From IMG/VR virus record IMGVR_UViG_3300042516_002394, positions 1 to 37,776 of that record: DNA of 37,776 nucleotides; one strand, 5' to 3'. Of the stretch, positions 12,319-37,776 are shown piece after piece. The notes under the pieces are model-generated. The model did no database searches, was not told where the DNA came from, and was given only the letters and a program-made list of their open reading frames with translations. The translations under genes and the position numbers were made by a program. The stretch's first letter is position 1; each line of letters opens with the position of its first letter. The stretch comes from a virus.

Positions 12319-13011
12319 ATGACGACCACATCCGCCCCTGAGGGCGCGCCTTCCCCCGCCGCCGCGGCCGACGCCGCGAACAACGCTTCTTCGTCGACGG
12401 CGCCTGCCGTCGACGCCGTCGAGGACCTTGCCGCGCTGCGTGCCGCCGCCGCTGAGCTTGCCGCGCTCAAGGCCGAGGGCGCCGCCGCGCGCAAGGCCGA
12501 CAGGGAGGCCCGCAAGCGTGCGCAGGAAGAGGCCGAACGTAGTGGCGAGTTGGCGAAGGCGTTGGAAGCCGCGAAGTCACGCCTTGCCGAGCTTGAGGCA
12601 GTCGAGCCGCTGGCGCAGCGGTGGCGCGCGCACGAAGAAGCCGAGGTCAAGCGCCTTGACGCCGAAGCCGCCGCGCTGCCCGAGGCCGTGCGTGCGCTGT
12701 ATGCCGACGCGCGCGACGTCGACAACAAGGCGAAGATCCTTGCGGCATTCCGCGCCGCCGGTGGCTCGACGGCGCCGGCCAAGTCGGTTGCGGCGCCGCC
12801 CGCGCTTGGCGCGCCGCCGGCCGTTACGATCGTCGACGTCGAGGCGGCGCTTGCCGACCCGACGGGCAAGAGGCTGGCCGAAATCAAAGCGCGCGATCCT
12901 GGCGCCGTGTCGCAATTCTTTTCGAGCCTGCTCGGTAAGCGCGCAGGCTCCAACTCCCTTGGCGTCGGGCGGTTCGCGTCTGCCCGCCCGACCAAGGCGC
13001 CGAACGCATAA
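12319..13011 (+). CDS. Capsid scaffolding protein
   Basis: A 230-aa Ala/Glu-rich protein. Residues about 1-40 are low-complexity and disordered, about 40-115 form a strong predicted coiled coil (ALRAAAAELAALKAEGAAAR and onward), and the tail is basic. This is the profile of phage scaffolding proteins, which template procapsid assembly and then leave. The position directly before the major capsid gene agrees. No protease motif is visible, so scaffold removal is probably by exit rather than by a fused protease. Confidence 0.8.
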   Translation: MTTTSAPEGAPSPAAAADAANNASSSTAPAVDAVEDLAALRAAAAELAALKAEGAAARKADREARKRAQEEAERSGELAKALEAAKSRLAELEAVEPLAQRWRAHEEAEVKRLDAEAAALPEAVRALYADARDVDNKAKILAAFRAAGGSTAPAKSVAAPPALGAPPAVTIVDVEAALADPTGKRLAEIKARDPGAVSQFFSSLLGKRAGSNSLGVGRFASARPTKAPNA

Positions 13012-13041
13012 CGCGCTCACTAGCGCCTGAAAGGACACGCA

Positions 13042-14031
13042 ATGCCCGTTTCATCCTCTGTCACCGTCGCCAATTGGCTGCTTACCGAGGTCATGTCGCA
13101 GATTGCGCTTGACCCGCTGCGCGGTAAGTATGTTGTGCTGCCCTTCCTCAACATGGCCGACATTTCGGGTCAGGCCACGAAGGTTCGCAAGATCCGCAAG
13201 AAGAATGCGATCGCCGCCGCCGTCGACGACAGCGAAGGTATTGCGTTCAGCAACCCCGCGGCGCTCGGCGTCGCCGCGAACATCAGCATCACCCCGTCGA
13301 CGAAGGTGCAGGGCGTCCAGCTGACCGCGGAAGCCATCGAGCTGGCCCTGCCCGGCGTGCCGCGCGCGCAGGTCATTAGCGCCATCCAAGCCGGCAACCC
13401 TGCCGCGCTGCCGCTCGTGCGCGATGCGATGGTCGAAATCCTTGAGTCGCACTACCTGCGCGCCGAGACGGATGCGCTTGCGTTGTTCTCGGGCCTGTCG
13501 GAATCGGCCGGCACGACCAATCAGCCGTTGTCCTTCGCGACGCTGCTCGACGCGTTGTTGAAGGTGTTGGATAACAACCCGGCCAGCGAAGACCTCGTCT
13601 TCGTGCTGGAAGAGCAGGGCGTGGCCGATCTGCGCGCGCTCGCCGCGGGCGGCACTGGCGCCGCGCTGTCGACGATCTTCTCGTCGGGCGCTGCCGATCT
13701 GTCGTTCTTCAACCATCGTCCCGATGCGTCGCGCAACGGCTTCCGTGGTGGCTTTGCTGGCGTGCCGATCTACGCGGCGAACAAGAACGTTATGGCGACG
13801 GCGAATGTCGGCGTCGATCGTGTGTCGGCGCTGATCGTGGCCGGCCGCGGCGAGACGGGCGCGCCTGGTTCGGTGCGTGGCTTCGCGGAAATGGTCGAGC
13901 GTTTCGAGCCGTCGCTCGGATTCCAATATGACCTTGCCGACGACACGTTGCTCGCGGTGGGTCGCTGGTGCTACGCCGTTGGCGAGCACACCGACGAGCA
14001 CGGTTGCCGGATCATTTACGACCTCGACTGA
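13042..14031 (+). CDS. Major capsid protein
   Basis: A 329-aa protein expected to build the icosahedral shell, probably HK97-fold. The sequence shows an N-terminal arm, a charged loop VRKIRKKNAIAAAVDDSEGIAF, a region with QLTAEAIELALPG and a long spine-like helix, and a beta-rich C-terminal half ending in VGEHTDEHGCRIIYDLD. It follows the scaffold gene, has AAAGGA about eight bases before its ATG, and is followed by a strong terminator, which is usual for the most abundant virion protein. HK97-type major capsid proteins are about 300-400 aa. The fold is inferred; no diagnostic short motif exists. Confidence 0.83.
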   Translation: MPVSSSVTVANWLLTEVMSQIALDPLRGKYVVLPFLNMADISGQATKVRKIRKKNAIAAAVDDSEGIAFSNPAALGVAANISITPSTKVQGVQLTAEAIELALPGVPRAQVISAIQAGNPAALPLVRDAMVEILESHYLRAETDALALFSGLSESAGTTNQPLSFATLLDALLKVLDNNPASEDLVFVLEEQGVADLRALAAGGTGAALSTIFSSGAADLSFFNHRPDASRNGFRGGFAGVPIYAANKNVMATANVGVDRVSALIVAGRGETGAPGSVRGFAEMVERFEPSLGFQYDLADDTLLAVGRWCYAVGEHTDEHGCRIIYDLD

Positions 14032-14047
14032 TAGTCAGTCGACCCGG

Positions 14048-14080
14048 GGCAGGGGCGCGATGTGCGCCCCTGCCTTGTTT
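14048..14080 (+). terminator. Terminator or attenuator after the major capsid gene
   Basis: GGCAGGGGCGC (14048-14058) and GCGCCCCTGCC (14064-14074) form an 11-base perfect stem with a 5-base loop, followed by TTGTTT. The T-run is broken by one G, so some readthrough to downstream head genes is expected. This gives high capsid message and lower downstream expression. Confidence 0.78.
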
Positions 14081-14099
14081 CCCTCTACTTGAGGCGCAC

Positions 14100-14558
14100 G
14101 TGAAGAGAACGATCAAGCTCCGCTGCATCAAAGACCCGCACCTTGTCGACTTCATCGACAGCGGCATTACTCGCGACGGCGAGCCCACTGGTCAGCGCCA
14201 AGCGCTGGCGCGCGTGCTCGGTAAGCGTGTCGAGGTCGATGGCAAGATGCTACCGATCTTTCTGGTCGCCGAGGTTGGCGCGTGGGAAATGCGCCCCGGC
14301 GAACGCATGCCAGAGGGCGACGAATGGCAGCGATTTGAGGAAGACACGATCCGACGCGAGCACCCCGAGCACCTGATCAAGCGATGGGAAGCCGCGCGTG
14401 AAAAGTTTATCGGCGCAAGCATCGAGCGCCGCCGACAGGCCGAGGCGCAGCTTGAGCAGCAAACCGGCGGCGAGGTCGCCAAAGGCATTCAAGCCATGGT
14501 AAAAGCGCTCGCGCAGCAGGCGGCGACGCCGCCGAACAAGGGAGGTGCCCGTGTCTGA
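14100..14558 (+). CDS. Hypothetical head-region protein
   Basis: A 152-aa charged protein, not recognised. The N-terminal half looks beta-rich (TIKLRCIKDPHLVDFIDSGI; EVDGKMLPIFLVAEVGAWEM). The second half, from about residue 75, is a long charged helix, likely coiled coil. The GTG at 14100 has GAGG six bases upstream; the frame runs open back into the capsid gene but only as a shadow. It may be a head-completion or capsid-associated protein, given its place after the major capsid gene. Confidence 0.72.
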   Translation: MKRTIKLRCIKDPHLVDFIDSGITRDGEPTGQRQALARVLGKRVEVDGKMLPIFLVAEVGAWEMRPGERMPEGDEWQRFEEDTIRREHPEHLIKRWEAAREKFIGASIERRRQAEAQLEQQTGGEVAKGIQAMVKALAQQAATPPNKGGARV

Positions 14559-14697
14559 TATCAAGCCCGCGACCGTCGATAAGGCGGCAGAGCAGATCAA
14601 GAAATCCAACCCCTCACTTTCCTCGGAAAAGGCACGCCAGATTGCGCGTGAGTCTGCCGAGCGCCTTAACCGCCAACGCCGCGAACGCGGCAACTGA
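14551..14697 (+). CDS. Small 48-aa charged protein
   Basis: Begins at a GTG overlapping the previous gene by eight bases, with a very good GGGAGGTG upstream, and encodes a single basic helical peptide (MSDIKPATVDKAAEQIKKSN at the start, RQRRERGN at the end). It has typical operon spacing to the next ATG at 14710. It has no recognised family; the composition suggests a small nucleic-acid- or capsid-binding helix. Confidence 0.68.
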   Translation: MSDIKPATVDKAAEQIKKSNPSLSSEKARQIARESAERLNRQRRERGN

Positions 14698-14709
14698 TAG
14701 GAGTCAGCT

Positions 14710-15213
14710 ATGTCGCTCGCAGCCCTCAACACCGGCGGCACCCCGCTCGCCATGGTTTGCCAGATCAACGACGCCACCGGCGAGACGATCACCGTCGCCG
14801 CCGCCGCCACCCCGCAGCCGATCCTGTCGGCGACCCTATACACCATCGCGCGCAACAACGCCGGTGGCACGTTGGCGTTCGCCGGATCGACCGGCGTGAT
14901 CACGGTCGCGCAGCCCGCAGCGATCGGTGATTACGAGGTTCTTGCCATCGTCGGCGACGGTATCGCGACGAACAGCGCCGTCATCGACGTCGAAATCTGG
15001 GCCAGCGTCGGCGGCGCCGCGAAGGCGCAGATCGGCACCGGCTCGCGCAAAACCGAGCTGTCGACGGCGTCGCGTATGGGTATGCCCGCCGCATATGCGG
15101 TCTGGTCGCCCACCGCCGTCGGCGACACCGTCGAGGCGCGCGTGCGAGTCGGGACCAACGGCCACGCGCTGACGCTGCGTGACTTCTCGCTGATCGTCCG
15201 CAAGATCGGCTGA
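14710..15213 (+). CDS. Putative head decoration or structural protein
   Basis: A 167-aa, almost entirely beta-rich protein with many Ala, Thr, Val and Gly and no enzyme motif. Segments such as TLYTIARNNAGGTLAFAGST and VEARVRVGTNGHALTLRDFS look like a small beta-sandwich. TAGGAG upstream of the ATG is a good ribosome site. Position after the major capsid gene and composition suggest a capsid decoration or head-associated protein. This is inference; no family was recognised. Confidence 0.62.
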   Translation: MSLAALNTGGTPLAMVCQINDATGETITVAAAATPQPILSATLYTIARNNAGGTLAFAGSTGVITVAQPAAIGDYEVLAIVGDGIATNSAVIDVEIWASVGGAAKAQIGTGSRKTELSTASRMGMPAAYAVWSPTAVGDTVEARVRVGTNGHALTLRDFSLIVRKIG

Positions 15214-15220
15214 ACCGAAT

Positions 15221-15284
15221 AAGCCCGAGGGTGATCACATGAACCGTAAGATCCTTGTCTCTGTCATCGCCCTCGGGCTTTTCG
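15221..15284 (+). promoter_or_regulatory. Long hairpin masking a ribosome binding site
   Basis: AAGCCCGAGGGTGA (15221-15234) pairs with TCGCCCTCGGGCTT (15267-15280) over 14 bases with a single G-U wobble. The left arm contains the GAGGGTGA ribosome site and the 32-base loop contains the ATG at 15239. The right arm is codons about 10-14 of the signal peptide and is followed by a short T-run. The structure could block translation or end transcription at the border between head genes and the exported-protein cassette. Confidence 0.62.
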
Positions 15285-15640
15285 TTGCCGGCGTCGCCGC
15301 GGCGTTCTCGCCCGGCGCCGTCGTTGAGGTCGTGCGCAACGGCGTCACGTCGGTAGGTCCGTCGTTTCCCCGTCATGAGCTCATCACCTGCAATACGTCG
15401 GCGGGCGGCGTCGAAATCCGGCCGTCTGGTTCGTTCCAGCTCGTGTCGTACGAATGCAAATCGGCCGGCACCGTGTTTGTCGGATCGACGACAGGCGCTG
15501 GATCGGCGCTGACGACGGCCAACGGCGTCCAGTTTGCGAGCGGCGACCGCTTCGGCGCCAACGTGCAGCGCCCCGAGCGGTGCATCGTCGCGTCAGGTAC
15601 GACGGTCCTTTCTTGCCGATTCCTGGTGACGGCGTGGTGA
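15239..15640 (+). CDS. Exported small beta-rich protein
   Basis: A 133-aa protein with a clear Sec signal peptide: basic MNRK, hydrophobic ILVSVIALGLFVAGV, and a likely cut after AAA near residue 22. The mature part is beta-rich and has four Cys (in LITCNTS, SYECKSA, ERCIVA, LSCRFL), which could form two disulfides outside the cytoplasm. No family is recognised with confidence; similar small four-Cys domains occur among phage structural proteins. Its ribosome site lies in the hairpin at 15221-15284. It overlaps the next gene as GTGA. The signal peptide is seen directly; the role (envelope protein or virion protein carrying an export signal) is unknown. Confidence 0.75.
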   Translation: MNRKILVSVIALGLFVAGVAAAFSPGAVVEVVRNGVTSVGPSFPRHELITCNTSAGGVEIRPSGSFQLVSYECKSAGTVFVGSTTGAGSALTTANGVQFASGDRFGANVQRPERCIVASGTTVLSCRFLVTAW

Positions 15641-17823
15641 CTTCGCGTCGACGCGCTAGGTTTGCCGTGGCGCTTGTGCTGGCGTTCGCCGGGTCATCGC
15701 GCGCGCAATACGTTATCGGCGAAGAGGCGGGCATCCTGGGCGGCGAGCAGGGCTTCTTTCGCCCGCCGGTCGTCGCCCCCTCCGGCCCGCCGGCGCCGAC
15801 GTTCGACCTCGTCGCCGGGTCGACGACGCCAAACGACTTGCCGGATTCGCTCGTCGTCAACGGGACGCCGATGACGCTGGCGCTGGCGTGCGACGCCGAC
15901 GATATCAGCGGCACCAACTGGTCCTGTCGCACCGACAGCGGCCCGACGACGCTGGCGCAAGCGGGCACCGGCGGCGCTCCGACCGTGTCGACGCTGACTC
16001 CATGGCGCGCCATCGACTCGACAGAGAGGCAAGTCGCCTATGCGGCGACGGGGCAGCGGCATGACGCGTCGACGAACGCCATCGGCGACCTCGCGACCGA
16101 TGACCTCGTCTTCGAAATCGTCAGCAAGAACGCGGGCGTCAGTGGTCGGGTGTTGATCGAAAAGGGGCTTGCGGGGACCGATGGCTGGTCATTGAACCAG
16201 ACCTCGGCATCGACGCGCTTGCAGATTCGCACGGCGTCGACGACGACGTCTATCATCGGCGCGGGCGCCCAAGGCAACGCCTGGTCACACTCCATCATCT
16301 TCGTCGACCGCAGCGAGGCCAGCACCAATGGGTCAATCGCCTACGACAACGCGCTCGCCGGCACCGGCGTCGATGTTTCGGCGCGGTCGGGCTCGATGAG
16401 CAACACATCGACGCTCGCTGTCGGCGCGGCATCGGGCGCGGCATCGGGTGCCGTCAACGTGTCGTCGTTTCGCATCTGGCGCTGCGCGGGCTGCATGGCC
16501 GGCGGCGCAACCAACCCGACGCAGTGGGCGCTCATCGCACGCGAGCGCACGGCGCGCGCATGGGGCCTGCTGCCGACGGCCAGCGGCACGTCGACGCCGA
16601 CGACCCTGACGCGCGCGACGCAGGCCATGGTGGACGTCGTCGATGGCAGCACGCGGCAGCTCTACCTCGTCGGCAACGGCGCGCCGCGCGTCGCGCGTCG
16701 TACGCATGGAGGCACCGCGCTCGTCGGCTACATGAGCGAACCGGCCGTGAGTAACATCGCGCTACAGAGCCAGACGTTGGGCACGACGTGGACGCCGATT
16801 ACCGTCGGCGACAACGTGCTTGCCGATCAGTTTGCCGGCGCAGACCTGACGACGACGGGCGACAATATCGACGGCGACAACACCGCGCCCGCTGAGCACG
16901 GTTTGCGGCAGGGTATCGCCGTCGTGGCTAACACCTACACATACAGCGCATGGGCGCGCGCGGGCTCGCAGAGCTTCGTCGCGCTGCGGAATGCGACCAT
17001 TGCCAACGGCGCCGCATGGTTCAATTTGACGACGTGCACATCAGGAACATGCACCATCGGCGAGGACTGCCCGTCCGCGGTCGGCACGGTGCAGGCTGGC
17101 GTAACGCGCGCATCCGCTGAGCGCTGGCCTGCTGACACATCGGGCGACGGCGTCGCCGACGTCAATCTTTGCCGCGTGTCCATCACGTACGCGGGCACAC
17201 TCGCCACGCACAACCACGACCTTTTGTGCGCGCCGTCGGACAATAACTTGACCTACCTCGACGCCGACACGGTCGCCGACTGCGGTTTCTGGGGCGTGCG
17301 TCTTGAGGCTTTCCCGGCGCCGACTAGCTACCTCGCGACGACGACGGCAGGCGTGGCGCGCAACGCTGACGATGTGCGCTACGACGGCGCAAGCCACTAC
17401 ACCGGCAGCCCGTCGACGATGGACGTCGGCGTGCTCTGTCCGTCGTTTGACACCGCTGCTACGTCGACGTTCGCGAGCGTCGGCACCGGCACGGCAAACT
17501 ACGCTCGCCTCGGCATCGACGCCACGAATGACCGTGGCCTCGCAGAAGCCACGGTGACGACGCAGCAATGGAACATCATCGCCGGCAGCGGCGACGTCTC
17601 CGGCGGGGTCGCGCGCACGCTGCGGCAGACGATGGTGACGGACAGCATTGAGGCCTTCGTCGACGGCGTCAGCATCGGGACAGATACGCTCGCCACGCTG
17701 CCGACAGCCGCATCGTCTTTCGTCTACTTGGGCACGACAGGGTCGACCGCCGCGGCGTCGGCTTGCCTGCTGTCCCGCGTCCGTCTCTGGTCGAGCGCAG
17801 TAACCCCGGCGGTGGTCCCATGA
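15637..17823 (+). CDS. Exported LamG-like, carbohydrate-binding-type protein
   Basis: A 728-aa protein starting at a GTG that overlaps the preceding stop as GTGA. Residues 1-23 form a Sec signal peptide (SRRRAR, then FAVALVLAFAG, cut near SRA-Q). A first concanavalin/LamG-like segment lies about 130-310 (LVFEIVSKNAGVSGR; SSFRIWRCAGCMAG). A middle domain (about 370-565) runs from NIALQSQTLGTTW through TYSAWARAG to FWGVRLEAFPAPTSYL, the pattern of a carbohydrate-binding domain common on phage fibre proteins. A second LamG-like segment fills the C-terminus and ends with SRVRLWSSAV. Such domains bind glycans, so surface binding is likely. A signal peptide on a fibre-like protein is odd, because virion proteins usually stay in the cytoplasm. 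Confidence 0.72.
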   Translation: MTSRRRARFAVALVLAFAGSSRAQYVIGEEAGILGGEQGFFRPPVVAPSGPPAPTFDLVAGSTTPNDLPDSLVVNGTPMTLALACDADDISGTNWSCRTDSGPTTLAQAGTGGAPTVSTLTPWRAIDSTERQVAYAATGQRHDASTNAIGDLATDDLVFEIVSKNAGVSGRVLIEKGLAGTDGWSLNQTSASTRLQIRTASTTTSIIGAGAQGNAWSHSIIFVDRSEASTNGSIAYDNALAGTGVDVSARSGSMSNTSTLAVGAASGAASGAVNVSSFRIWRCAGCMAGGATNPTQWALIARERTARAWGLLPTASGTSTPTTLTRATQAMVDVVDGSTRQLYLVGNGAPRVARRTHGGTALVGYMSEPAVSNIALQSQTLGTTWTPITVGDNVLADQFAGADLTTTGDNIDGDNTAPAEHGLRQGIAVVANTYTYSAWARAGSQSFVALRNATIANGAAWFNLTTCTSGTCTIGEDCPSAVGTVQAGVTRASAERWPADTSGDGVADVNLCRVSITYAGTLATHNHDLLCAPSDNNLTYLDADTVADCGFWGVRLEAFPAPTSYLATTTAGVARNADDVRYDGASHYTGSPSTMDVGVLCPSFDTAATSTFASVGTGTANYARLGIDATNDRGLAEATVTTQQWNIIAGSGDVSGGVARTLRQTMVTDSIEAFVDGVSIGTDTLATLPTAASSFVYLGTTGSTAAASACLLSRVRLWSSAVTPAVVP

Positions 17824-18344
17824 ACAGAAATCGTCTCGCTGCTCTGCTTGTCGCTGTCGGCGGGTCTGTCGCCGGTGGGTTCGCCTACTTGTCCAGAGTG
17901 CTTTCACCAAGCGGCAGCTATCTGGTCGAGTGCGCGCCAAGCAACGGCGATTGCGTGCTCGTGGCGCGTCCCGTCGTCGATCAATGCCCCGTCCTGCTTG
18001 AGGGCGGCGGCGACCGACCGGGCGAAACGAGCGGGCTTGAGGGTGACGGCGCCGTGGCCGCGCGCGCGCTGTATGCCATGATGGAAGCGGGCGCGGTCAA
18101 CGGCTTCCGCACCATCGTCGACGGCGAAGGCTGTAAGGTCGCTATGGCGCTTTCTCGCGAGCAGGCGCGCGCGTGGCGTGATACACTCACCGGCGAGGCC
18201 GAAGGCGGCACGCTTGCCGAAGCTGTCGCGGTCCTCACCCCTGCCCCGCCTGCCGGCGTGCCGGTGCAATGGGGCGGCGCTCCCTCGCCCGAGGAACGGG
18301 TCGAGGCGTTCGATCTGTCCGCAGTCGACGCAGGAGTGCCTTAG
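17820..18344 (+). CDS. Membrane-anchored or exported hypothetical protein
   Basis: A 174-aa protein with an N-terminal hydrophobic segment (LAALLVAVGGSVAGGFAYL, residues 6-24) after basic MNRNR, serving as signal anchor or uncleaved signal. The outside part has four Cys (VECAPSNGDCVLV, DQCPVL, EGCKVA), then a helical region and a Pro-rich tail. No family is recognised. The ATG at 17820 overlaps the LamG-like gene as ATGA, and the next gene follows after 2 bases, so it links the exported cassette with the lysis genes. It could be an envelope-acting lysis accessory protein; this is position-based. Confidence 0.7.
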   Translation: MNRNRLAALLVAVGGSVAGGFAYLSRVLSPSGSYLVECAPSNGDCVLVARPVVDQCPVLLEGGGDRPGETSGLEGDGAVAARALYAMMEAGAVNGFRTIVDGEGCKVAMALSREQARAWRDTLTGEAEGGTLAEAVAVLTPAPPAGVPVQWGGAPSPEERVEAFDLSAVDAGVP

Positions 18345-18346
18345 CC

Positions 18347-18586
18347 GTGGAGCAGATAGCAGCCGCCATCCTTTCCGCGGTCGCCGGTGCGGCCGCCGCG
18401 TGGGCCACCACGCAAAGCCGCATCAAGCGGCTGGAGGAAGTGTCTGCCGAATTAAAGGCCGACAAAGCGAGCAAAGAAAGCCTCGACGCCGTGCGCTCTG
18501 CTGTCGATCGACTGCGCGAAGATTTGGACAAGCGGTTTGACCGCTTGGAAGACGCAATCAAATCGATGGGGAAGTCGCATGGTTGA
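18347..18586 (+). CDS. Small membrane protein with coiled coil (lysis module)
   Basis: A 79-aa protein with one hydrophobic segment near the N-terminus (IAAAILSAVAGAAAAWA, residues 4-20) and a long heptad-like charged helix (RIKRLEEVSAELKADK onward). This layout occurs in holin-associated and XhlA-like phage proteins, though XhlA has the opposite order. The GTG at 18347 follows the previous stop by two bases, with AGGAGTG a little upstream. It overlaps the holin-like gene by eight bases. It is likely part of the membrane stage of lysis; exact function is unknown. Confidence 0.65.
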   Translation: MEQIAAAILSAVAGAAAAWATTQSRIKRLEEVSAELKADKASKESLDAVRSAVDRLREDLDKRFDRLEDAIKSMGKSHG

Positions 18587-18800
18587 AAAGATGCTTGCAG
18601 ACATTGCCAGCCCGCACACGCTGGCAAACATCGTCGCCGTTCTGCTGGCGCTCTTTGCGCGCGACGTCGTCGTCGGGGCGCTGCGCTCGCTTGCGAAGCG
18701 CGTCAAGGAAGACCGCGACCCGGGCAACGATTGGATGGCCGACGCCGCCCTCGTCGTCGTCAACGCTATCGAGCGTGTCAAGCTGCCGGGTCGTCGATGA
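18579..18800 (+). CDS. Putative holin
   Basis: A 73-aa protein with one predicted membrane helix (LANIVAVLLALFARDVVVGAL, about residues 15-35) and a basic, charged remainder (RSLAKRVKEDRDPGND). Holins form holes in the inner membrane at a set time and release the endolysin. Size, single hydrophobic segment and position directly before the endolysin (ATGA overlap) support this. With only one clear segment, a different small membrane lysis protein is possible, and the gene before it is an alternative holin. Confidence 0.6.
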   Translation: MVEKMLADIASPHTLANIVAVLLALFARDVVVGALRSLAKRVKEDRDPGNDWMADAALVVVNAIERVKLPGRR

Positions 18801-19333
18801 CGCCGCGCTATAAGCAGAACGATCCCCGCTGGGGATCGGCGGTGCTTGGCTTTGGGCCGTCGACCATCGGCCGGTCAGGGTGCCTGCTCGTGTGCTTGTC
18901 CGAGGCCGCACGCATGCTGCGCGGCGTCGAAATGCCGCCGCCGCTGCTGAACAGCGCGGGCATCGATCGCAAAGCGTACATGCATTCAATGGCGCTGACG
19001 AAAGAGCTTGGCGCGCTGGCCGGGCTTGTCGTCGGCGACAAGCAGACCGGCGACGTGCCGACGATGCGCGGCATGATCGGCGAGACGCTGCGCGGCGGCG
19101 GGCTTGTGATCGCGCACGTCGATCACACCGGCGACGCGCTGGGCGACCATTTCGTGGTCGTGCACGTCGACGGCCACGACGCAAGCGGCAATCGGCGTCT
19201 CACCTACGCAGACCCGGCGACGGGGCGCGATGCTGAGCTTGACGGCGTGAACCTGACGGGTTCGACGACGTGGGGGACGCGCGTAAAAACGTACCGCGTG
19301 CGTGGCGTGCGGAGCGTGCACGCAGCGCAATAG
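18797..19333 (+). CDS. Endolysin, peptidase C39-like
   Basis: A 178-aa protein with a papain-like C39 peptidase layout: YKQNDPRWG at residues 5-13, a catalytic Cys in GRSGCLLVCLSEAAR (C29), a His in GDHFVVVHVDGH (H118) and an Asp in TYADPATG (D139). C39-like domains without transporter parts are common as phage endolysins or cell-wall peptidases that cut peptide cross-links. It lacks a signal peptide, so it would need the upstream membrane proteins to reach the wall. The ATG at 18797 overlaps the holin-like gene as ATGA. No separate cell-wall-binding domain is visible. Confidence 0.8.
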   Translation: MTPRYKQNDPRWGSAVLGFGPSTIGRSGCLLVCLSEAARMLRGVEMPPPLLNSAGIDRKAYMHSMALTKELGALAGLVVGDKQTGDVPTMRGMIGETLRGGGLVIAHVDHTGDALGDHFVVVHVDGHDASGNRRLTYADPATGRDAELDGVNLTGSTTWGTRVKTYRVRGVRSVHAAQ

Positions 19334-19341
19334 GGGGCGAC

Positions 19342-20133
19342 GTGGCGACGAACAAGAAGCCCGCGAAGGCCAAGGGCCTGACGCGCGCAGACGTCGAGCA
19401 CGTCATGGCATGCAGCGACGTCCACGTTCCGTTCCATGACCCGTTCGCATGGCGCGCGTTCTTGCTGCGCCTTGAGGACGTGCGGCCCGATCGGCTGATC
19501 ATCAATGGCGACTTTGCCGATTTCTTGTCGGTGTCGCTGCATGAAGACGGACAGCCGGCGCCTGAGTTTGCGGCCGAGGTGGAGGCCGTGCGCGCCGAGC
19601 TTGACCGCTTGCGCAAGATCATGGGCAAGCGGTCGATCCACTACGTCGAAGGCAACCACGAGCATCGTTACGCGAGATACGTGGCGAAAAAGGCGCCGAC
19701 GCTGCGCGGGCGCGAGACTTGGCAATCCGCGCTGGGGCTCGTCGACCTCGCCATCACGTCGACGGCTTACGGCAAGGTGCACAAGATCGGACACCTTGGG
19801 TTCACGCACGGCGTCTATGCGGGCGATGCCTATGCGAAGCAGCACCTACTGCGCTATGGCGTTAGCCTGGTCATCGGGCATTGCCACCGCGCGCAAATCC
19901 ACACGCTGCCCGTCGCCGGGCCTGATGGCTCCCAGCATGTGCGCGGCGGATTTGGGATTCCTTGCCTCGCCCCCGTCGACGAAGCGCCCTACATGAGGGG
20001 GCCAACCGGATGGACGCAAGGCCATGGCGAATTCTTTATCGAGCGCGAATCTGGGCGCTTCACGGCCGACGTCGTGATCTACACGGCGCAAAGGTTCTGG
20101 CGCGGCGGCAAGTGCTACGACGGGAGGGCATAA
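19342..20133 (+). CDS. Calcineurin-like metallophosphoesterase
   Basis: A 263-aa protein with the full two-metal phosphoesterase set: SDVH (D26, H28), NGDFAD (D57), EGNHEH (N105, H106), FTHG, and IGHCH near residue 180. These enzymes hydrolyse phosphomonoesters or phosphodiesters, including nucleotides, cyclic nucleotides and DNA ends. The GTG at 19342 has a strong AGGGGG upstream. It sits between the endolysin and tail-connector genes, an unusual place for a DNA-end-processing enzyme. The substrate is unknown; nucleotide scavenging, DNA end processing or removal of a host defence signal are all possible. Confidence 0.85.
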   Translation: MATNKKPAKAKGLTRADVEHVMACSDVHVPFHDPFAWRAFLLRLEDVRPDRLIINGDFADFLSVSLHEDGQPAPEFAAEVEAVRAELDRLRKIMGKRSIHYVEGNHEHRYARYVAKKAPTLRGRETWQSALGLVDLAITSTAYGKVHKIGHLGFTHGVYAGDAYAKQHLLRYGVSLVIGHCHRAQIHTLPVAGPDGSQHVRGGFGIPCLAPVDEAPYMRGPTGWTQGHGEFFIERESGRFTADVVIYTAQRFWRGGKCYDGRA

Positions 20134-20387
20134 TGGACCTCGTCGACGTGGTCGTGACGATCCTTGAATGCATGGCGATCGGGCTCGGCATGGAGCTAGG
20201 CGCCATGATCGCGAAGGTGCTCTCGGTGCGCCTGCTCAACAGCGCGTCGCCCATCACGCCGCACGACGTCGAGCAGGAGCAGGAGCAGGACGAAGAAGAG
20301 GAAGAAGAAGCCGCCAAGCGGCGGCGCAGGCGTGCGCCTCGGGGCGGTGGGGGTCCGTCGACACCGACCGGCGTGCGTGCTATGTAA
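20133..20387 (+). CDS. Small membrane protein with acidic-then-basic tail
   Basis: An 84-aa protein. Residues 1-35 are hydrophobic (LVDVVVTILECMAIGLGMEL) and could span the membrane once. Residues about 47-60 are almost all Glu, Gln and Asp, followed at once by KRRRRRAPRGGGG. No family is recognised. The ATG overlaps the previous stop (TAATG) and has GGGAGG upstream. The sharp charge reversal suggests self-association or binding to nucleic acid or membrane. It might be a small late lysis or assembly protein. Confidence 0.62.
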   Translation: MDLVDVVVTILECMAIGLGMELGAMIAKVLSVRLLNSASPITPHDVEQEQEQDEEEEEEAAKRRRRRAPRGGGGPSTPTGVRAM

Positions 20388-20393
20388 GTGCCT

Positions 20394-21299
20394 ATGTTGC
20401 GCGTGCTGCTGAACTCCACCGAGACGATTACATCGTACCCGCGGCTTGCGGCCGATGGCGTGCTCACGTCGCACCTCGCGACCTCGGCGACCGCGCGACG
20501 CATCGGGCCCGGCGACGACGACCCGGTCGGCACCTACGTCGCCGCGACGGTCGACCCGGTGTCGACGACGACGCAGGGCGCCCATCAAGAGGGCGACGAT
20601 TCGGTTACGGTCGCGCAGGCGCAGGCGTGGGTCGCCGGCCGGCGCTACCTGATCACGGACGCCACGGCCGGGCGCGAAATCGTCGTGGTCGCCAGCCGCT
20701 CCGGCACGTCAACCGAACTGTGGCTTGCCGAACCGTTGTTGTCGGACATTGGAAACGGCTCGACGGTAAGGGGCATCGCCATTTCCGTCGCGTTGACGTT
20801 GGCGATGACGAACGAGGTTGGCGCGGGATATGTCCTTTTCCGCGCCACGATCGACGGCGTGGTGCGGGAGTGGGAAGAGCCCTTCCGCGTCGTTCGACGC
20901 ATCACGTCGGTCGCGCTTACACCGACGCACCTGACGCAAGCGTTTCCCGTCGTGCGCAAGCTGGCGAGCGCCACCGATACGACGTTGGAAGAGGTCATAA
21001 ACGCCGCGTGGCATCACTACGTCGTGCCAGCCCTTGCCGCGCGTGGCGTGCTCGACGAAGACATTATGACCGATGACGTCATTGAGCCGATGCATGCCGC
21101 CGCGTGCGTGCTGCACCTCGCCCGTCAATGGCCGCAAGCGTCGTCGGAATATGTGGCGCGCCTTGAAGCCACCTACGAGCAGGCGAAGGCAACGACGTGG
21201 GACCGGATTGATCTGCTGACCGCGCCGCAGGATGCGGTCACGCCAGACGCGCCAAACCCCGGCACGCAGGGACCGCGCTACGTGGGGATCACGCGATGA
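20394..21299 (+). CDS. Putative head-tail connector protein
   Basis: A 301-aa protein placed where head-tail adaptors occur. The N-terminal two thirds are beta-rich (VAGRRYLITDATAGREIVVV; VLFRATIDGVVREWEEPFRV). The C-terminal third is helical (VINAAWHHYVVPALAARGVL; MHAAACVLHLARQW), like connector proteins that stack below the portal. No fixed motif exists. The ATG at 20394 was chosen; a GTG at 20388 directly follows the previous stop and is an alternative. Neither has a strong ribosome site. The stop overlaps the next start as ATGA. Confidence 0.58.
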   Translation: MLRVLLNSTETITSYPRLAADGVLTSHLATSATARRIGPGDDDPVGTYVAATVDPVSTTTQGAHQEGDDSVTVAQAQAWVAGRRYLITDATAGREIVVVASRSGTSTELWLAEPLLSDIGNGSTVRGIAISVALTLAMTNEVGAGYVLFRATIDGVVREWEEPFRVVRRITSVALTPTHLTQAFPVVRKLASATDTTLEEVINAAWHHYVVPALAARGVLDEDIMTDDVIEPMHAAACVLHLARQWPQASSEYVARLEATYEQAKATTWDRIDLLTAPQDAVTPDAPNPGTQGPRYVGITR

Positions 21300-22998: not shown

Positions 22999-24387
22999 AT
23001 GCCTTACGCGACGCAACGCAACACCGACGGCGCGCAGCGATACCGCAACCGTAAGATCGACAATCGTTTGGCGACGATTGAGGACGATCTTGACAGCGGC
23101 GTGATCGGCGGCGGCGGTGGTGGCGGCGGTGCGCCGACGGGGGCTGCGTACGTCACGATCGGCAACAACGCGACGCTTACGGCCGAGCGCGCGTTGACGC
23201 AGGGCGCCGGCATCCTGATCACGGATGCCGGCGCTAACAGCACGGTTACAATCGCCGCGTCGGGCGTGGGCACCGCGCAATTGGGCGGCGACATTACGAC
23301 CGCCGGCAAGGCGTTGCTTGACGACGCCGACGCTGCGGCGCAGCGCACGACGCTCGGGCTCGCCGCGATTGCCGCGTCAGGCTCGGCGTCGGATTTGGCG
23401 GCGGGCACCGTCGCCGTCGCTCGTCTGCCGGCGCTGACTGACGCGCAATTCTTTACGACGGCCGGAAGCCCGACGTGGACCAAGCCCACATCGTTCACGC
23501 CGACGTGGGTTCGCGTAGTTTGCTACGGCGGTGGCGGTGGCGGTGGCGGTGGCGGCTCGCAGACCGGCGCGGTCGTACGCACCGGCGGGTGCGGCGGCGG
23601 CGGCGGCGCGCGTGTCGAGCGCACCTATCGCGCGTCGGACCTAGGGCCGACTGTCGCGATCGTCGTCGGCGCAGGCGGCACCGCTGGCGCGGCCGGGCTG
23701 TCGGGCGCCGCTGGCGGCACCGGCGGGCAGGGTGGCGTAAGCTCGTTCTCAACCGGCATCACGCTCTGTCAAGCCTTCGGCGGCGGTGGCGGATTCGGCG
23801 GCACGGCCGCCGCTTCTGCCGGCGGTGGTGGTGGCGGCGCTGGCGCGTACGCAGCGGGCGGCAACGGCACGGCAGCAGCCGGCGCGGGCGGCGCACCCGT
23901 CGCCGCGGTACCCGTCGGCGGCAGCGGCGTCGCGGGCAGCATCACTGCGACGTCGCCAGCCATGACCGAGCACGGCGGCGGCGGCGGCGGCGGGCACACG
24001 AACGTCCCCGCAAACAGCGCGGGCGGCGGAAGCCTATTCGGCGGCGGCGGCGGCGGATGCGGCGCGGGCGCAACGGTGGCGCCTGCCCTTATCGCGGCGC
24101 GTGAAGGCGGCGCGGCGGCGACGGGCGGCGGTGGCGGCGGCACGGCTGGCGTGTCTGGCGTGGCCCCGACGCCTGGTGGCGCAGGCACGGCCGGCGGCGC
24201 TTACCGCGGTGGCTACGGTGGCGGCGGTGGCGGCGGAACGATCACCGCTAACACCGCAGGCGCGGCCGGCGGCGCAGGTGGTGCATGCGGCGGCGGTGGC
24301 GGCGGTGGCGGCGTCGGCAGCAACACCGGCATCGGCGGCGCCGGTGGCGTCGGCGGCGTGGGTGCGGTGTTCGTCTTTTCGTGGTAG
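22999..24387 (+). CDS. Polyglycine-rich tail fibre or adhesin
   Basis: A 462-aa protein. The N-terminal part has a short charged helix (residues 15-32), a glycine run and fibre-like repeats including DDADAAAQRTTLGL, seen in many phage fibres. At about 155 comes TWTKPTSFTPTWVRVVCYGG, the standard start of a glycine-rich C-terminal domain (W-T-K-P then V-x-V-x-C-x-G-G-G-G). The last 290 residues are dominated by blocks of four to ten Gly and end VGAVFVFSW. Such polyglycine domains form receptor-binding tips, as in T-even gp38-like adhesins, where loops between Gly blocks set host specificity. The place between tube and chaperone genes is unusual for a fibre. Confidence 0.78.
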   Translation: MPYATQRNTDGAQRYRNRKIDNRLATIEDDLDSGVIGGGGGGGGAPTGAAYVTIGNNATLTAERALTQGAGILITDAGANSTVTIAASGVGTAQLGGDITTAGKALLDDADAAAQRTTLGLAAIAASGSASDLAAGTVAVARLPALTDAQFFTTAGSPTWTKPTSFTPTWVRVVCYGGGGGGGGGGSQTGAVVRTGGCGGGGGARVERTYRASDLGPTVAIVVGAGGTAGAAGLSGAAGGTGGQGGVSSFSTGITLCQAFGGGGGFGGTAAASAGGGGGGAGAYAAGGNGTAAAGAGGAPVAAVPVGGSGVAGSITATSPAMTEHGGGGGGGHTNVPANSAGGGSLFGGGGGGCGAGATVAPALIAAREGGAAATGGGGGGTAGVSGVAPTPGGAGTAGGAYRGGYGGGGGGGTITANTAGAAGGAGGACGGGGGGGGVGSNTGIGGAGGVGGVGAVFVFSW

Positions 24388-25047: not shown

Positions 25048-25373
25048 GTGAGTTTGACTGCGCGCGCTGCCCGGCGGCGCGGCGGTCGACCTTCGGGTGC
25101 CACGGTAACGGGCGCATCGCGTTTTTTGCCGGCACCCCGCACGAGACGCGCACCTGCCCACGGCGCCACATCCTCGACCACCCTGACGTCACCGGGCCGC
25201 TGTCCCTCTGGCGCGCCTGCGAGGGCAAGCCGGGCATTGAGGCGCTGCGTGTGCTCTCAACGCATGCCGTCGACGCTCTGGGCGTGGTAGACTCTGGCCG
25301 CGCCGCGAAGTCTGCGGACGACGCACGGCATGCGAGCGAACGAGCGAGCGCGTCAGCGCCCGCAAAGAGGTGA
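25011..25373 (+). CDS. Tail assembly chaperone, -1 frame extension (gpGT-like)
   Basis: After a -1 shift at 25011 the ribosome would read SLALWAASAVDLSEFDCARC and continue for 120 residues to a TGA at 25371-25373. The fusion product is about 325 aa (205 from the upstream frame). The extension has well-spaced Cys and His (DCARCP, FGCHGNG, RTCPRRH) that suggest a small zinc site, and a helical end. It has no ATG, and the only upstream codons belong to the first frame, so a separate gene is unlikely. This follows the rule of siphovirus chaperone pairs, in which the long form bridges chaperone and tape measure. The tape measure starts four bases after the stop. Confidence 0.68.
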   Translation, partial: SLALWAASAVDLSEFDCARCPAARRSTFGCHGNGRIAFFAGTPHETRTCPRRHILDHPDVTGPLSLWRACEGKPGIEALRVLSTHAVDALGVVDSGRAAKSADDARHASERASASAPAKR

Positions 25374-25376
25374 ATC

Positions 25377-27017
25377 GTGACGACCGGGCAGACCATCGAG
25401 GCCAAGATCACGGTCGACGCCAAACAGGCGCAAGCCGAGGTCGTCAAATTTACCGGCAGGCTGTCGGAGGTCGAAGAAAAGGCGAAGTCATCGAACGGCG
25501 CGATGGTTCGATGGCAAGAGCGCATGAAAGACGTTCAGAGCAAAATGGGGCCGTCGGCGGCCGCCATTTCAAGCGTGGCTAGTGCCTTGGGCCAGACCGG
25601 CGGCGAGGTCGCGAAGGTGGTTAATGCCGCAGGGCAAATGGCAGCCGCTTTCGGTGCTGGTGGACCGTGGGCGGTTGCCATCGTCGGCGCGACGTTGCTC
25701 GCCGATGAATATGCGAAGGCCGAGGCAGAGATAGCAGCGAACGCAAAGATTGCCGATGAAGCGTTAAAAGCATTCGGCGCGAATCTGACGCAAAACAGCG
25801 GCAAAGGCTTGGAGTTTATCAAGCAGAAAGCCGACGAAGCGGCAAGGGCTGTCAGGGATTTTGGCAAGACGTCTGAAGAGGTAACGATAGCGAATGCTCG
25901 GCTTGAAATTGCGGATACTGAGCGTCGCATCCGTGGCCTAGACGAAGCCATCCAGCGCCGAGAAAGAAACATCGGCATCGCGCGGCAGGAAATGAACGAC
26001 CCGGCCATCATTAAAAGCCGGCAAGACATTATCGATCGATTGCGCACTGTGGCCGAAGAAACAACGCTTATGAAGGAAACCATTGCGCGACGCAATGAAC
26101 TTACCGCTACACTTAAGAATCAACAGGACGAAACGCGTCGGCTTATCACTGCGCAGCGCACGCTTCGCGAACTTGAGGACTTGCCAGAGGGAAGCGCCGA
26201 CCTAATGGCCGCCGCCGGCGGCGGAATTCGGACCACCGGCTCAAGCATTGCCGCAGGCATGAGGCAAGCCGAGATCGATCGATGGAACGAGCGCGTCAAG
26301 CGCGATAAGGCCGAGCGACAGGCGCAGCTCGCCAAGATCAAAGAGGACCGCGATCTAGCCGCCATGCGCGCCGATGCAATCTTTAAGGCCGAGGAAGATC
26401 GGGCCAAGGAATCAGCGCGGCGACTGAAAGAGATTGCCGATCAGCGTCGACGCGAAGAAGAAGAAGCGCGCCGCGCAGAAGAAGCCGCGCGCCAAGCCGA
26501 GCTGCGCGATCAGGAGCAGAAATTCACCGCGCTTGCGACCGGCATGGCGACCGCCGTGGGGCGGTTCGCGACCGAGGCGGCGATGGGGCAGGAGGAGGCG
26601 CTTGCAAACCTGCTGTCCGCGGCGGCGGCGCAAGCCGGCGGCATGATCACGCTTGAGGGAGGCAAGATCCTTGCGGCCGGCATCGCTGGCGCGCTCGTCG
26701 GCAACCCTGCGGCGCCTGGGCAGATTGTCGGCGGCGCGGCGCTCGTCGCCGCAGGGACCGCCGTGCAGACCGGCGGGCCGGCGGCGGTGCAGTCGCTGCT
26801 CGGCATGGCCGGCATGGGCGCAGGCAAGGCGAGCGGCGGCGACAGCGGCGCCGCGCGCGACCGAGGGGCTGCACCCCGCTCGCCACGCGGCGGCGGCGAC
26901 GGTGGGCCGCTTGTCATCAATGTTTCCTACGGGGTCGGCGGGCCATTGCCCGAAGACACCGCGCGCGAGATCGCAAAGGTCATGAAGACGGGCAACCGTC
27001 GACGAGGTGCCGCTTGA
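25377..27017 (+). CDS. Tape measure protein
   Basis: A 546-aa, mostly helical protein that sets tail length and is released on infection. It starts at a GTG with GAGGTGA four bases upstream. It has an N-terminal helical region, a hydrophobic stretch (AAFGAGGPWAVAIVGATLL, about 89-107), a long central coiled coil (about 170-260 and 285-380, with EEEEARRAEEAARQAELRDQ), and Gly/Ala-rich hydrophobic parts (about 385-475). At the usual 1.5 angstrom per helical residue the tail would be about 80 nm, short for a siphovirus. The position after the chaperone pair supports the call. No lysozyme or peptidase domain is visible. Confidence 0.85.
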   Translation: MTTGQTIEAKITVDAKQAQAEVVKFTGRLSEVEEKAKSSNGAMVRWQERMKDVQSKMGPSAAAISSVASALGQTGGEVAKVVNAAGQMAAAFGAGGPWAVAIVGATLLADEYAKAEAEIAANAKIADEALKAFGANLTQNSGKGLEFIKQKADEAARAVRDFGKTSEEVTIANARLEIADTERRIRGLDEAIQRRERNIGIARQEMNDPAIIKSRQDIIDRLRTVAEETTLMKETIARRNELTATLKNQQDETRRLITAQRTLRELEDLPEGSADLMAAAGGGIRTTGSSIAAGMRQAEIDRWNERVKRDKAERQAQLAKIKEDRDLAAMRADAIFKAEEDRAKESARRLKEIADQRRREEEEARRAEEAARQAELRDQEQKFTALATGMATAVGRFATEAAMGQEEALANLLSAAAAQAGGMITLEGGKILAAGIAGALVGNPAAPGQIVGGAALVAAGTAVQTGGPAAVQSLLGMAGMGAGKASGGDSGAARDRGAAPRSPRGGGDGGPLVINVSYGVGGPLPEDTAREIAKVMKTGNRRRGAA

Positions 27018-27820
27018 GTTACCCTGTCATGCTTGGCGCCATCGTCATTCAGACGAACATCAACAACCGGCTGCGCTTTCGTGAGGGCGCAGGCGCAATC
27101 GGCAACGTCGACCTCGCCGCCGGCACGTATTACCTGCGCGGCGATGGCGCGACGGGCGACCTACTTCTTGAGATCAAGAACAAGCTCGACGCGTTTGGCG
27201 CGCTGGGGAATGCGTATACGGTCACGGTCGCGCGCAGCATCGACCCGGCGGCAGCGCACACCGCGATTACGATCACGCGGTCGGCGGGCACCGATACCTT
27301 CCAACTTGTGATCGATGGCTCGCAGACCTTCGACATGGCCCTTATCGGGTTCACCGCGTCGACAGCCAATGACGCCAATGCGAAGACCTCGACGCAGGCA
27401 TGCGCGGCGGCATGGGTTGGCAACGACGTTGCGCGCGAGATCGAGCCCTACAGCGAGCGCACCGTGGCCGTGCCGCGCGCGGTATCGGGTCGCGTGCAGG
27501 GCGTGACGCGCTCGGCGCGTATGCAATCCTGGCGGCTCGGGCTGGCCTTTATCGACGAGCGCCGCACCTATATTGAGAACGCCCTTGCCGGCGCGCAGGA
27601 CACGCTTGAGGGCTTCATCGAGCGTTTCGGCGCGGGCGCATCGCTTGAGCTCCACGAGCAGGCCAGCGTGACGGGCGTAGCGCTTGGCGCGCTGTCGTCA
27701 TCGACGCTGGTAGACGTGTGCCATTTCTCCGAGGACACGCTTTCGCGGTTTGAGCCTACGCGCTTGGGGCCGGGCGTGCCGCTCTACTCAATCGATCTGC
27801 GCCTGCATGCGAGGGTGTGA
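27014..27820 (+). CDS. Putative distal tail protein
   Basis: A 268-aa, mainly beta-rich protein directly after the tape measure, where distal tail (Dit-like) proteins occur; these form a ring joining tube and tip. A TTG at 27014 overlaps the previous stop and has GAGGTG seven bases upstream, so TTG is the preferred start; the ATG at 27029 has no such site. Segments include FREGAGAIGNVDLAAGTYYL and, near the C-terminus, GVPLYSIDLRLHARV. No diagnostic motif was recognised, so the assignment is positional. Confidence 0.58.
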   Translation: MSYPVMLGAIVIQTNINNRLRFREGAGAIGNVDLAAGTYYLRGDGATGDLLLEIKNKLDAFGALGNAYTVTVARSIDPAAAHTAITITRSAGTDTFQLVIDGSQTFDMALIGFTASTANDANAKTSTQACAAAWVGNDVAREIEPYSERTVAVPRAVSGRVQGVTRSARMQSWRLGLAFIDERRTYIENALAGAQDTLEGFIERFGAGASLELHEQASVTGVALGALSSSTLVDVCHFSEDTLSRFEPTRLGPGVPLYSIDLRLHARV

Positions 27821-33194: not shown

Positions 33195-33905
33195 CTACTC
33201 CGCGAACATCGTGGGCGTGTACCCACGGGCAAGGCGCTTGCGCGCGATCTCAAAATGCTCGGGCTTCTCTTCGGCGCCGACGGCGCGGCGCCCCTCCATG
33301 ACCGCCGCAAGTAGCGTCGTGCCGCTGCCCACGAACGGGTCGCAGACGAGGTCGCCGGGGCGGCTGTAGTCGCGCACGATGGCGCGCATCAGCCCAAGCG
33401 GCTTGGCCCCAAGGATGCCGCTGTCGTTCGCTCTCGCTGGATCCTTGCGGCTGTCGTTCGTGTATCCGCCTGGCAGCGTGCCCCACCGCATAAACTCGAT
33501 TGTGCGCGGGCGCGCGACGACGATCCAACAGGTCCACGACGACGGCCCATCGCCCGACAAGCGAATCGGCCCACCTTCGTTGAACCACGGCAGCGGCGCA
33601 AAAACGTAACGTCCTGCCGCTTCAAGTGCAGACGTGTATGCTGAAACAAGATCGTGAGACGTGAAAGCCACAAACCAGCCACGGCAACGCGGCGACCATG
33701 AATCAACCAACGCTTTGACGTCGCTAGGCCTCATCGGTTCGTATTGAATCGGTTTTCTGTGATGCTTGGATGCAAGTTTTTCGTTGGTAGTCCGTTGCCC
33801 TTCATGCGTCCGCGCCCCGTAGGGCGGATCGCAGATCACCGCGTCGACGGCGTCAACGTGCGCCAGCGCGTCTTGCCAGCGCCCGGCGTGTAATTGTGCT
33901 CCCAT
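33195..33905 (-). CDS. DNA methyltransferase (N4-cytosine or N6-adenine type)
   Basis: A 236-aa DNA amino-methyltransferase. The catalytic motif DPPYG is at 26-30 and the AdoMet-binding motif DPFVGSGTT at 189-197, so the catalytic part precedes the cofactor part (beta-class order). The target recognition part is the middle (about 60-160, with WFNEGGPIRLSGDG). It probably methylates a short site to protect phage DNA from restriction or to mark it. AGGGAGA five bases before the ATG at 33905 decides the start. There is no restriction nuclease gene next to it, so it is an orphan enzyme. The target site cannot be read from the sequence. Confidence 0.88.
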   Translation of the reverse strand: MGAQLHAGRWQDALAHVDAVDAVICDPPYGARTHEGQRTTNEKLASKHHRKPIQYEPMRPSDVKALVDSWSPRCRGWFVAFTSHDLVSAYTSALEAAGRYVFAPLPWFNEGGPIRLSGDGPSSWTCWIVVARPRTIEFMRWGTLPGGYTNDSRKDPARANDSGILGAKPLGLMRAIVRDYSRPGDLVCDPFVGSGTTLLAAVMEGRRAVGAEEKPEHFEIARKRLARGYTPTMFAE

Positions 33906-37417: not shown

Positions 37418-37776
37418 GACGACAGTTCCCTCTTCTGGATTTGCAGGTAGGTGACCCCGTGCGACCACGTGTCGTCGTCTTTCACCTTCTTGAACAACAG
37501 ATCCGTCGGTCTGATCTTCCGGTAGTACCCCTCGGAAGCCTTCTCCAGCCGTTCGACGTCCTTCTTGTTTTCGGTCAGGATAACCTCGACAGCTGCGTGC
37601 ATTTCCGGCGTCCACGCGGCATATGCCACCGCACTGAAACTGCGAGCCAGAACCTCCAATGCCGCCAGCAGGTCAGGCGCGGCGGCGATGAGGTGTGCGT
37701 TTGCTTCAATGACATCTCTTCCGATTGGCTGCCCAGAAAGACCAAGACAAGGCGCGACCGTCGCCGTCGCGTCTGG
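37414..37776 (-). CDS. HTPGPW-family protein, C-terminal part (gene spans the genome join)
   Basis: The 3' part of the gene that starts at 239. Within this window it appears as 120 codons open to the right edge, the first 39 being the repeat copy. The unique part contains LEVLARSFSAVAYAAWTPEM and VEVILTENKKDVERLEKASE, a helical extension absent from the shorter paralogue at 36481-36750. It is not a truncated gene; it is complete once the ends are joined. Function unknown. Confidence 0.85.
   Translation of the reverse strand, partial: PDATATVAPCLGLSGQPIGRDVIEANAHLIAAAPDLLAALEVLARSFSAVAYAAWTPEMHAAVEVILTENKKDVERLEKASEGYYRKIRPTDLLFKKVKDDDTWSHGVTYLQIQKRELSS
37661..37776. repeat. Terminal direct repeat, right copy
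   Basis: Exact copy of bases 1-116. Removing one copy gives a circle of 37,660 bases in which the HTPGPW-family gene is intact. Confidence 0.97.

Follow-up and report, generated by a model that had tools for sequence, protein, structure and literature searches.

A predicted exported, fiber-type lectin cassette linked to the lysis genes of unrelated tailed phages

Why would a phage provide a protein built of virion-type carbohydrate-binding domains with an export signal and keep its gene close to the lysis genes? The question is raised by three consecutive genes, named here g1, g2 and g3, of the IMG/VR virus record IMGVR_UViG_3300042516_002394, whose whole length of 37,776 bases (66% GC) was analyzed and is called the window. 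An earlier note on this DNA had read them as genes coding for proteins of 133, 728 and 174 amino acids joined by four-base overlaps. Coordinates and lengths are exact, as are the overlaps, GTGA between g1 and g2 (15637-15640) and ATGA between g2 and g3 (17820-17823). Such four-base start/stop overlaps are frequent in phages and are by themselves weak evidence. The three genes appear to code for a Sec-exported, disulfide-stabilized lectin cassette; a signal peptide, along with twelve conserved cysteines, would make g2 the secreted form of a virion-type sugar-binding protein. The features that the sequences support are the export signals, a signature of an oxidizing compartment, a lectin-type domain, a lysis-linked position and horizontal movement.

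The Sec-type signal sequences proposed for all three proteins were borne out. Their amino termini are MNRKILVSVIALGLFVAGVAAA/F in g1, VTSRRRARFAVALVLAFAGSSRA/Q in g2 and MNRNRLAALLVAVGGSVAGGFA in g3. The five highest amino-terminal hydrophobicities among the 44 genes of the window belong to g1 to g5, adjoining genes at 15239-18800. A plain signal filter (an 11-residue Kyte-Doolittle mean of at least 2.0 preceded by a net charge of at least +1) is passed by g1, g2 and g3 (3 of 3) compared to 1 of the 39 other window genes and 1.9% of random amino termini. It is also passed by most members of the family alignments, the window protein included (g1, 10/10; g2, 7/8; g3, 8/9). The positive n-region, hydrophobic core and A-X-A site of the predicted signals are kept in homologues according to a simple scorer, and the cleavage motif ARA/Q or SRA/Q of g2 is kept in most relatives of the siphovirus A type described below. 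This conservation extends across phages although the amino-terminal sequences of g1 and g2 are otherwise unlike. The start assigned to g2 is supported by the relatives L003, L033 and L035, where it is the first in-frame start possible. A longer g2 starting at 15454 (789 amino acids) was rejected: its additional amino terminus is an Arg-rich reading that overlaps with g1, and nothing corresponds to it in these three relatives. By reading, no lipobox cysteine closes the hydrophobic segment of g1, g2 or g3 in the window. The amino terminus of g3 may be an uncleaved anchor instead of a cleaved signal. Export of g1, g2 and g3 as such is very probable.

Evidence for an oxidizing compartment is independent of the signals because the cysteines are even in number, invariant and absent from virion homologues. 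The count is even in all 24 of the 24 scored g1-g3 proteins (12 or 14 in g2, 4 in g3 and 4 or 6 in g1). In eight-member alignments 12/12 cysteines of g2 and 4/4 of g3 are invariant, as are 20/20 cysteines of g1-g3 among siblings of the window, the four of g1 included. The sole change in g2 is a paired gain in L014 (columns 182/212), giving a total of 14. In the remaining genes of these phages cysteines are mostly variable, with 0 of 14 invariant in the primase, 1 of 6 in the terminase and 0 of 4 in a 743-amino-acid tail protein, the helicase (11/15) and the phosphoesterase (4/4) being exceptions. The six cysteines of g2 domain 2 are present in 10/10 exported forms covering them and occur at those columns in none of 12 virion homologues; the amino terminus is readable in ten of the latter and is never signal-peptide-like. 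The trio proteins would thus reach an oxidizing compartment, where the twelve cysteines of g2 could form up to six disulfides. Conserved signals and cysteine pattern together sustain the earlier view of exported proteins, one of which has virion-type carbohydrate-binding domains.

The fiber-type domain that had been recognized in g2 is supported by the match of residues 368-577 to NF048003, the phage head spike fiber domain (57.2 bits for a cutoff of 36, E 3e-15, profile positions 3-182 of 182). The match to phrog_5939 'tail protein' spans residues 320-727 (7e-8) and is found in 4/8 members of the g2 family (best 1.3e-15). The LamG-like assignment held only in part: Laminin_G_3 (PF13385) is matched by 2/8 family members (best 1.6e-8), while the g2 of the window has no Pfam match. 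Kinship between domains 1 and 3 was undetectable by hhalign, and a g2 structure model from 3 sequences had a predicted local distance difference test score (pLDDT) of 27. Searches of PDB sequences gave nothing credible. An insert matching the domain-2 profile (5e-7) is present in sibling phage G001, in the tail protein coded directly behind the tape measure; the amino terminus of that protein has a hydrophobicity of 2.16 and lacks a positively charged n-region. With the insert as query, the domain is found in 477 isolated-phage records, many labelled tail fiber, minor tail or virion proteins. The distant sharing of domain 2 with the G001 tail protein is, as far as the profiles tell, that of a common virion domain and not of a specific decoy pair. 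The window orthologue of this tail protein (27014-27820) lacks the insert. The possibility that g2 is a copy of the tail fiber of the window phage itself was rejected, as no match was found in the window proteome.

G1 has a weak match to phrog_25585 (2.9e-4), and its position in nine relatives is filled by signal-bearing, Cys-rich proteins. An AlphaFold2 model of g3 (mean pLDDT 69, core 70-90) has no Foldseek match below E 0.05. Its best VIA-align match, to topoisomerase fragments (Z 5.2), is within background, and weak matches to periplasmic PulL/XcpY (Z 3.6) were not used. PHROG, Pfam and family profile searches gave no lysis or spanin family match for g1-g3.

Scans of viral contigs revealed the trio in ten further phages, which fall into three kinds unrelated to one another: siphovirus A (type A), a P22-like podovirus (type P) and siphovirus B (type B). 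One additional contig, 3300036398_002522, has an identical g2. G001 (3300042879_002600), G003 (3300044297_000134), G004 (3300032225_001413) and G005 (3300037339_000081) are syntenic siblings of the window, G002 (3300037189_019798) is a partial, more distant sibling, and L035 (3300043449_002379) is a distant cousin (30% identity in the capsid, 64% in g2). The terminase and portal genes of G006 (3300049479_000274) and L033 (3300010885_034493) are of a different kind (G006 portal, phrog_156, 4e-22); these two phages share with the window, in what was searched, the cassette only, plus a few accessory genes in G006. In G007 (3300010354_001021) and G008 (3300046777_001938), which form a separate siphovirus kind (GC content 50-52%), the trio comes after a gene for a 1,136-1,143-amino-acid protein behind the tape measure.

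Wherever the contig continues, g2 is followed by g3 and then by lysis-type genes. The trio is kept upstream of the holin/endolysin genes in phages whose genes for capsid, portal and tail differ, as do even those for the endolysin. The downstream enzyme varies: in types A and P it looks C39-like by eye, in G007 it is an endolysin match (phrog_21357, 1e-13), while in G002 g3 is followed by a patatin-like gene (PF01734, 3e-20), a holin-like gene and a gene that is M15-like by eye. The patatin-like phospholipase of G002 could itself attack host membranes. The trio neighbors head genes in type A, the portal gene in type P and a tail gene in type B. Since the type-B trio follows a tail gene, its position tracks the lysis genes and not the head genes. 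Judged by gene order, the trio is tied to lysis genes instead of virion genes; this link and its apparent movement between unrelated phages go beyond what the earlier note had seen. For g6 of the window, searches of Pfam, PHROG and NCBIfam gave no match with a useful E-value. No significant tblastn match to g1, g2 or g3 was found in isolated phages. Two scans of ~85,000 bacterial/archaeal genomes, requiring exact short peptides so that distant relatives would escape, found no trio relative, and therefore no host is indicated.

The g2 proteins of L016 (type A), L035 (type A2), L003 (type P) and L004 (type B) are 81-84% identical pairwise, a figure higher than nearly all those found between type-A g2 pairs (58-73%). 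In a blastn comparison of L003 and L004 there is a single match of 2,527 nucleotides that extends from g2 residue 49 into g3, and the match between types A and P begins at the same place of g2 (residue 49-50). Homology with these limits implies that exchange affects the lectin core together with g3, while the signal peptide, the linker and g1 are owned by each lineage. The G007 cassette has a GC content of 57.5% versus 51.4% in the rest of the genome. Since the g2 core is 81-84% identical in otherwise unrelated phages, the cassette is, by these comparisons, exchanged horizontally between them.

What the exported proteins do is a separate matter, for which receptor masking, a block to superinfection, a soluble lectin and modification of the cell surface, all suggested in the earlier note, are candidates. 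The function that we favor, at a confidence short of an even chance, is masking of host glycans around lysis. G1-g3 would be made in a late operon, presumably late in infection, just ahead of the holin and endolysin. G1 would be an exported, lineage-specific partner that may dock on g2 and form a complex with it, and g3 would be anchored in, or pass through, the inner membrane. The proteins would accumulate in the periplasm, or outside the cell if the host is monoderm, and there, or after lysis opens the envelope, would bind host surface glycans, their putative target. Receptor sugars of the dying cell, and of fragments of it, would then be pre-occupied, so that progeny might not be lost on debris and late superinfection might be limited. 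No sigma-70-like promoter was found in window 12900-20500, which is compatible with a single late operon without proving one.

Masking is favored on the strength of the sequence features above and of two published findings. The RcGTA head spike fiber binds cells as a tagged, particle-free protein, and capsular polysaccharide raises this binding (PMC10218006), which makes it plausible that free g2 binds host sugars. Residues 368-577 of g2 exceed the curated cutoff of this family (NF048003, GTA_spike_fiber), whose known members sit on the particle, unlike g2 with its signal peptide, flanking lectin-like regions and six extra domain cysteines; the signal and the cysteines speak against assembly of g2 in the cytoplasm. 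The Llp protein of T5 blocks the receptor and presumably lowers the loss of progeny on debris (PMC4728585). Llp of T5 and BF23 is, as predicted for g2, an exported phage-encoded protein, and by occupying the receptor it blocks superinfection. However, Llp is a small lipoprotein directed at a protein receptor and is expressed early in T5, whereas g2 is a large, non-lipidated lectin from a lysis-linked operon and has no homology to it. Several points weigh against masking. No outer-membrane export route was identified for g2, which would therefore stay in the periplasm of a diderm host until lysis. A ligand shared with the phage's own receptor-binding protein would be expected, and g2 has no convincing match among the tail proteins of the window phage. 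Finally, receptor binders often vary fast, while the g2 proteins of one phage group are fairly similar (58-73%).

Other known systems resemble parts of the trio. Gp76 of phiCbK is a concanavalin A-like protein of 2,799 amino acids coded near the head genes and regarded as a putative head filament; it resembles g2, which by reading is concanavalin-like in part, in being a fiber gene product coded near head genes, but it lies outside a lysis-linked trio and no signal peptide is reported in the part of the source available (PMC3556154). Some tail proteins coded after the tape measure contain a carbohydrate-binding insert, such as that of G001 and the Kagunavirus tail tip protein; they share domain 2 of g2 but belong to the virion by annotation or position and lack both the signal and the corresponding cysteines. 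The genes of spanins (Rz/Rz1) and of lysis cassettes are also adjoining, envelope-directed late genes. In contrast to spanins, g1-g3 have no lysis family match and no lipobox, and the spanin-like neighbor is g4. By its sequence features, the trio is predicted to be a set of phage-encoded, envelope-acting exported proteins outside the Llp and spanin families, because neither the lipobox nor the spanin family match that define these was found. No precedent for secreted phage lectins, exported fibers or this arrangement appeared in the literature searched, whose coverage was incomplete, in line with the earlier statement that no such system is described. The parts are known; what seems new is an exported, disulfide-bonded fiber lectin in a mobile lysis-linked trio.

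The trio might alternatively assist envelope lysis: in the periplasm, g1 and g2 would join an inner-membrane-anchored g3 in a complex that takes hold of peptidoglycan or of sugars of the outer membrane and contributes to breaking that membrane, in place of a spanin or in support of one. That the trio keeps its place next to lysis-type genes across three kinds of phage, even as the type of endolysin varies, agrees with such a role. So do the lack of an evident lipoprotein o-spanin in the window cassette and the nature of g4, which is weakly Rz-like and was not detected in siphovirus B or G002. Yet phages of the trio family retain other holin/spanin-like genes alongside, and we know of no spanin that resembles a 728-amino-acid protein of fiber lectin domains. 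This role ranks after masking and is on balance unlikely. More doubtful still is that g1 and g2 are exported, fold and oxidize in the periplasm and join departing particles as head or tail spikes. Domain 2 is of head-spike-fiber type, the neighbors of the trio are head genes in type A and the portal gene in type P, and a lineage-specific g1 and g2 linker are expected of a particle-docking adaptor. Tailed phages, however, assemble in the cytoplasm and, to our knowledge, there is no Sec-exported spike; the location behind a tail gene in type B and the g1 type common to L014 and L035 despite strongly differing capsids also disagree with this possibility.

An exported and mobile trio found at differing sites of late operons could also be a surface-modifying moron benefiting the infected cell or population (adhesion, biofilm or masking from other phages), akin to lambda Lom or Bor. 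Genes placed in a late lysis operon would have little time to provide such a benefit, no integrase was noticed, suggesting lytic phages, and the exact-peptide scans of ~85,000 bacterial/archaeal genomes yielded no copy, all of which render a moron quite improbable. It is least credible that the hydrophobic amino termini arose by chance or are buried helices of ordinary cytoplasmic structural proteins. High-GC genomes do yield Ala/Val/Leu-rich amino termini, but conservation of the signals and A-X-A sites in relatives with otherwise unlike amino termini, and even, invariant cysteines gained relative to virion homologues, make this highly improbable. Masking of host glycans is thus preferred to a lysis accessory and to a late-added spike.

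Table 1. Positions of the trio, its predicted domains and other features in the window and in two relatives.
Feature	Size or residues	Position	Strand	Description
Direct terminal repeat	116 bases	1-116 and 37661-37776
Capsid-like gene		13042		by position only
g1	133 amino acids	15239..15640	+	signal sequence and small cysteine-containing domain; lineage-specific partner gene
g1 predicted signal peptide	1-22	15239..15304	+	VAAA/F, putative cleavage site; hydrophobicity score and direct reading
g2	728 amino acids	15637..17823	+	GTG start; predicted exported lectin-type protein, 12 invariant cysteines
g2 predicted signal peptide	1-23	15637..15705	+	SRA/Q; hydrophobicity/charge scoring
g2 linker	24-49	15706..15783	+	lineage-specific; DNA homology between unrelated phages begins directly after
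g2 domain 1	50-320	15784..16596	+	LamG-like; PF13385 in relatives; place and limits approximate
g2 domain 2	368-577	16738..17367	+	phage head spike fiber (NF048003); six cysteines of the exported form only
g2 domain 3	578-728	17368..17820	+	C-terminal; concanavalin-like by reading, presumed fold; phrog_5939 match
g3	174 amino acids	17820..18344	+	N-terminal membrane/signal segment and small alpha/beta domain, 4 invariant cysteines
g4	79 amino acids	18347..18586	+	N-terminal hydrophobic segment and coiled coil; possible i-spanin; weak match to Rz-like spanin phrog_5151 (7.9e-4)
g5	73 amino acids	18579..18800	+	single hydrophobic segment; holin candidate; no useful family match
g6	178 amino acids	18797..19333	+	endolysin candidate by position and reading; cysteine-peptidase-like by eye
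Tape-measure-like protein		25377
Patatin-like phospholipase (PF01734, 3e-20)		L008:9633-10442 (G002)		directly after g3, where siblings carry a spanin-like gene
Spike-fiber domain insert in G001 tail protein		L020:7048-8370 (G001 25048-26370)		inserted after ~residue 42

The window is the whole virus record and, given its direct terminal repeat, probably a complete genome. Its 44 genes were defined by a mini gene call with hand correction. By gene content it is a tailed, siphovirus-like phage because it codes for a helicase, a primase, a large terminase and portal-like, capsid-like and tape-measure-like proteins. A calcineurin-like metallophosphoesterase gene (19342-20133) separates the lysis from the head-tail genes; it is 83-91% conserved among siblings, and its homologues are mainly in actinobacterial phages, with ~30% identity or less. 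The Gly-rich protein coded at 22999-24387 (PF21722 just under the cutoff, phrog_863) is among the structural genes that vary most across siblings and is a candidate receptor-binding or fiber gene. A gene that is methyltransferase-like by eye (33195-33905, minus strand) has a copy with 53% identity in podovirus G006 and appears to be a further gene swapped between window-type and podovirus phages.

Phage fibers are usually regarded as virion parts made in the cytoplasm, while here the same domain family is predicted to be secreted, disulfide-bonded, lysis-linked and mobile. Extra paired cysteines together with a signal may provide a sequence rule to find exported versions of virion domains. More tentatively than for masking in the window phage itself, siphoviruses and podoviruses might have in common a mobile dedicated system of secreted, oxidized fiber-type lectins that are co-expressed with lysis genes and blanket host glycans at release, so that progeny would be shielded from debris and competitors. 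An old question would become testable, that of whether free lectins are released at lysis so that progeny avoid sticking to dead cells.

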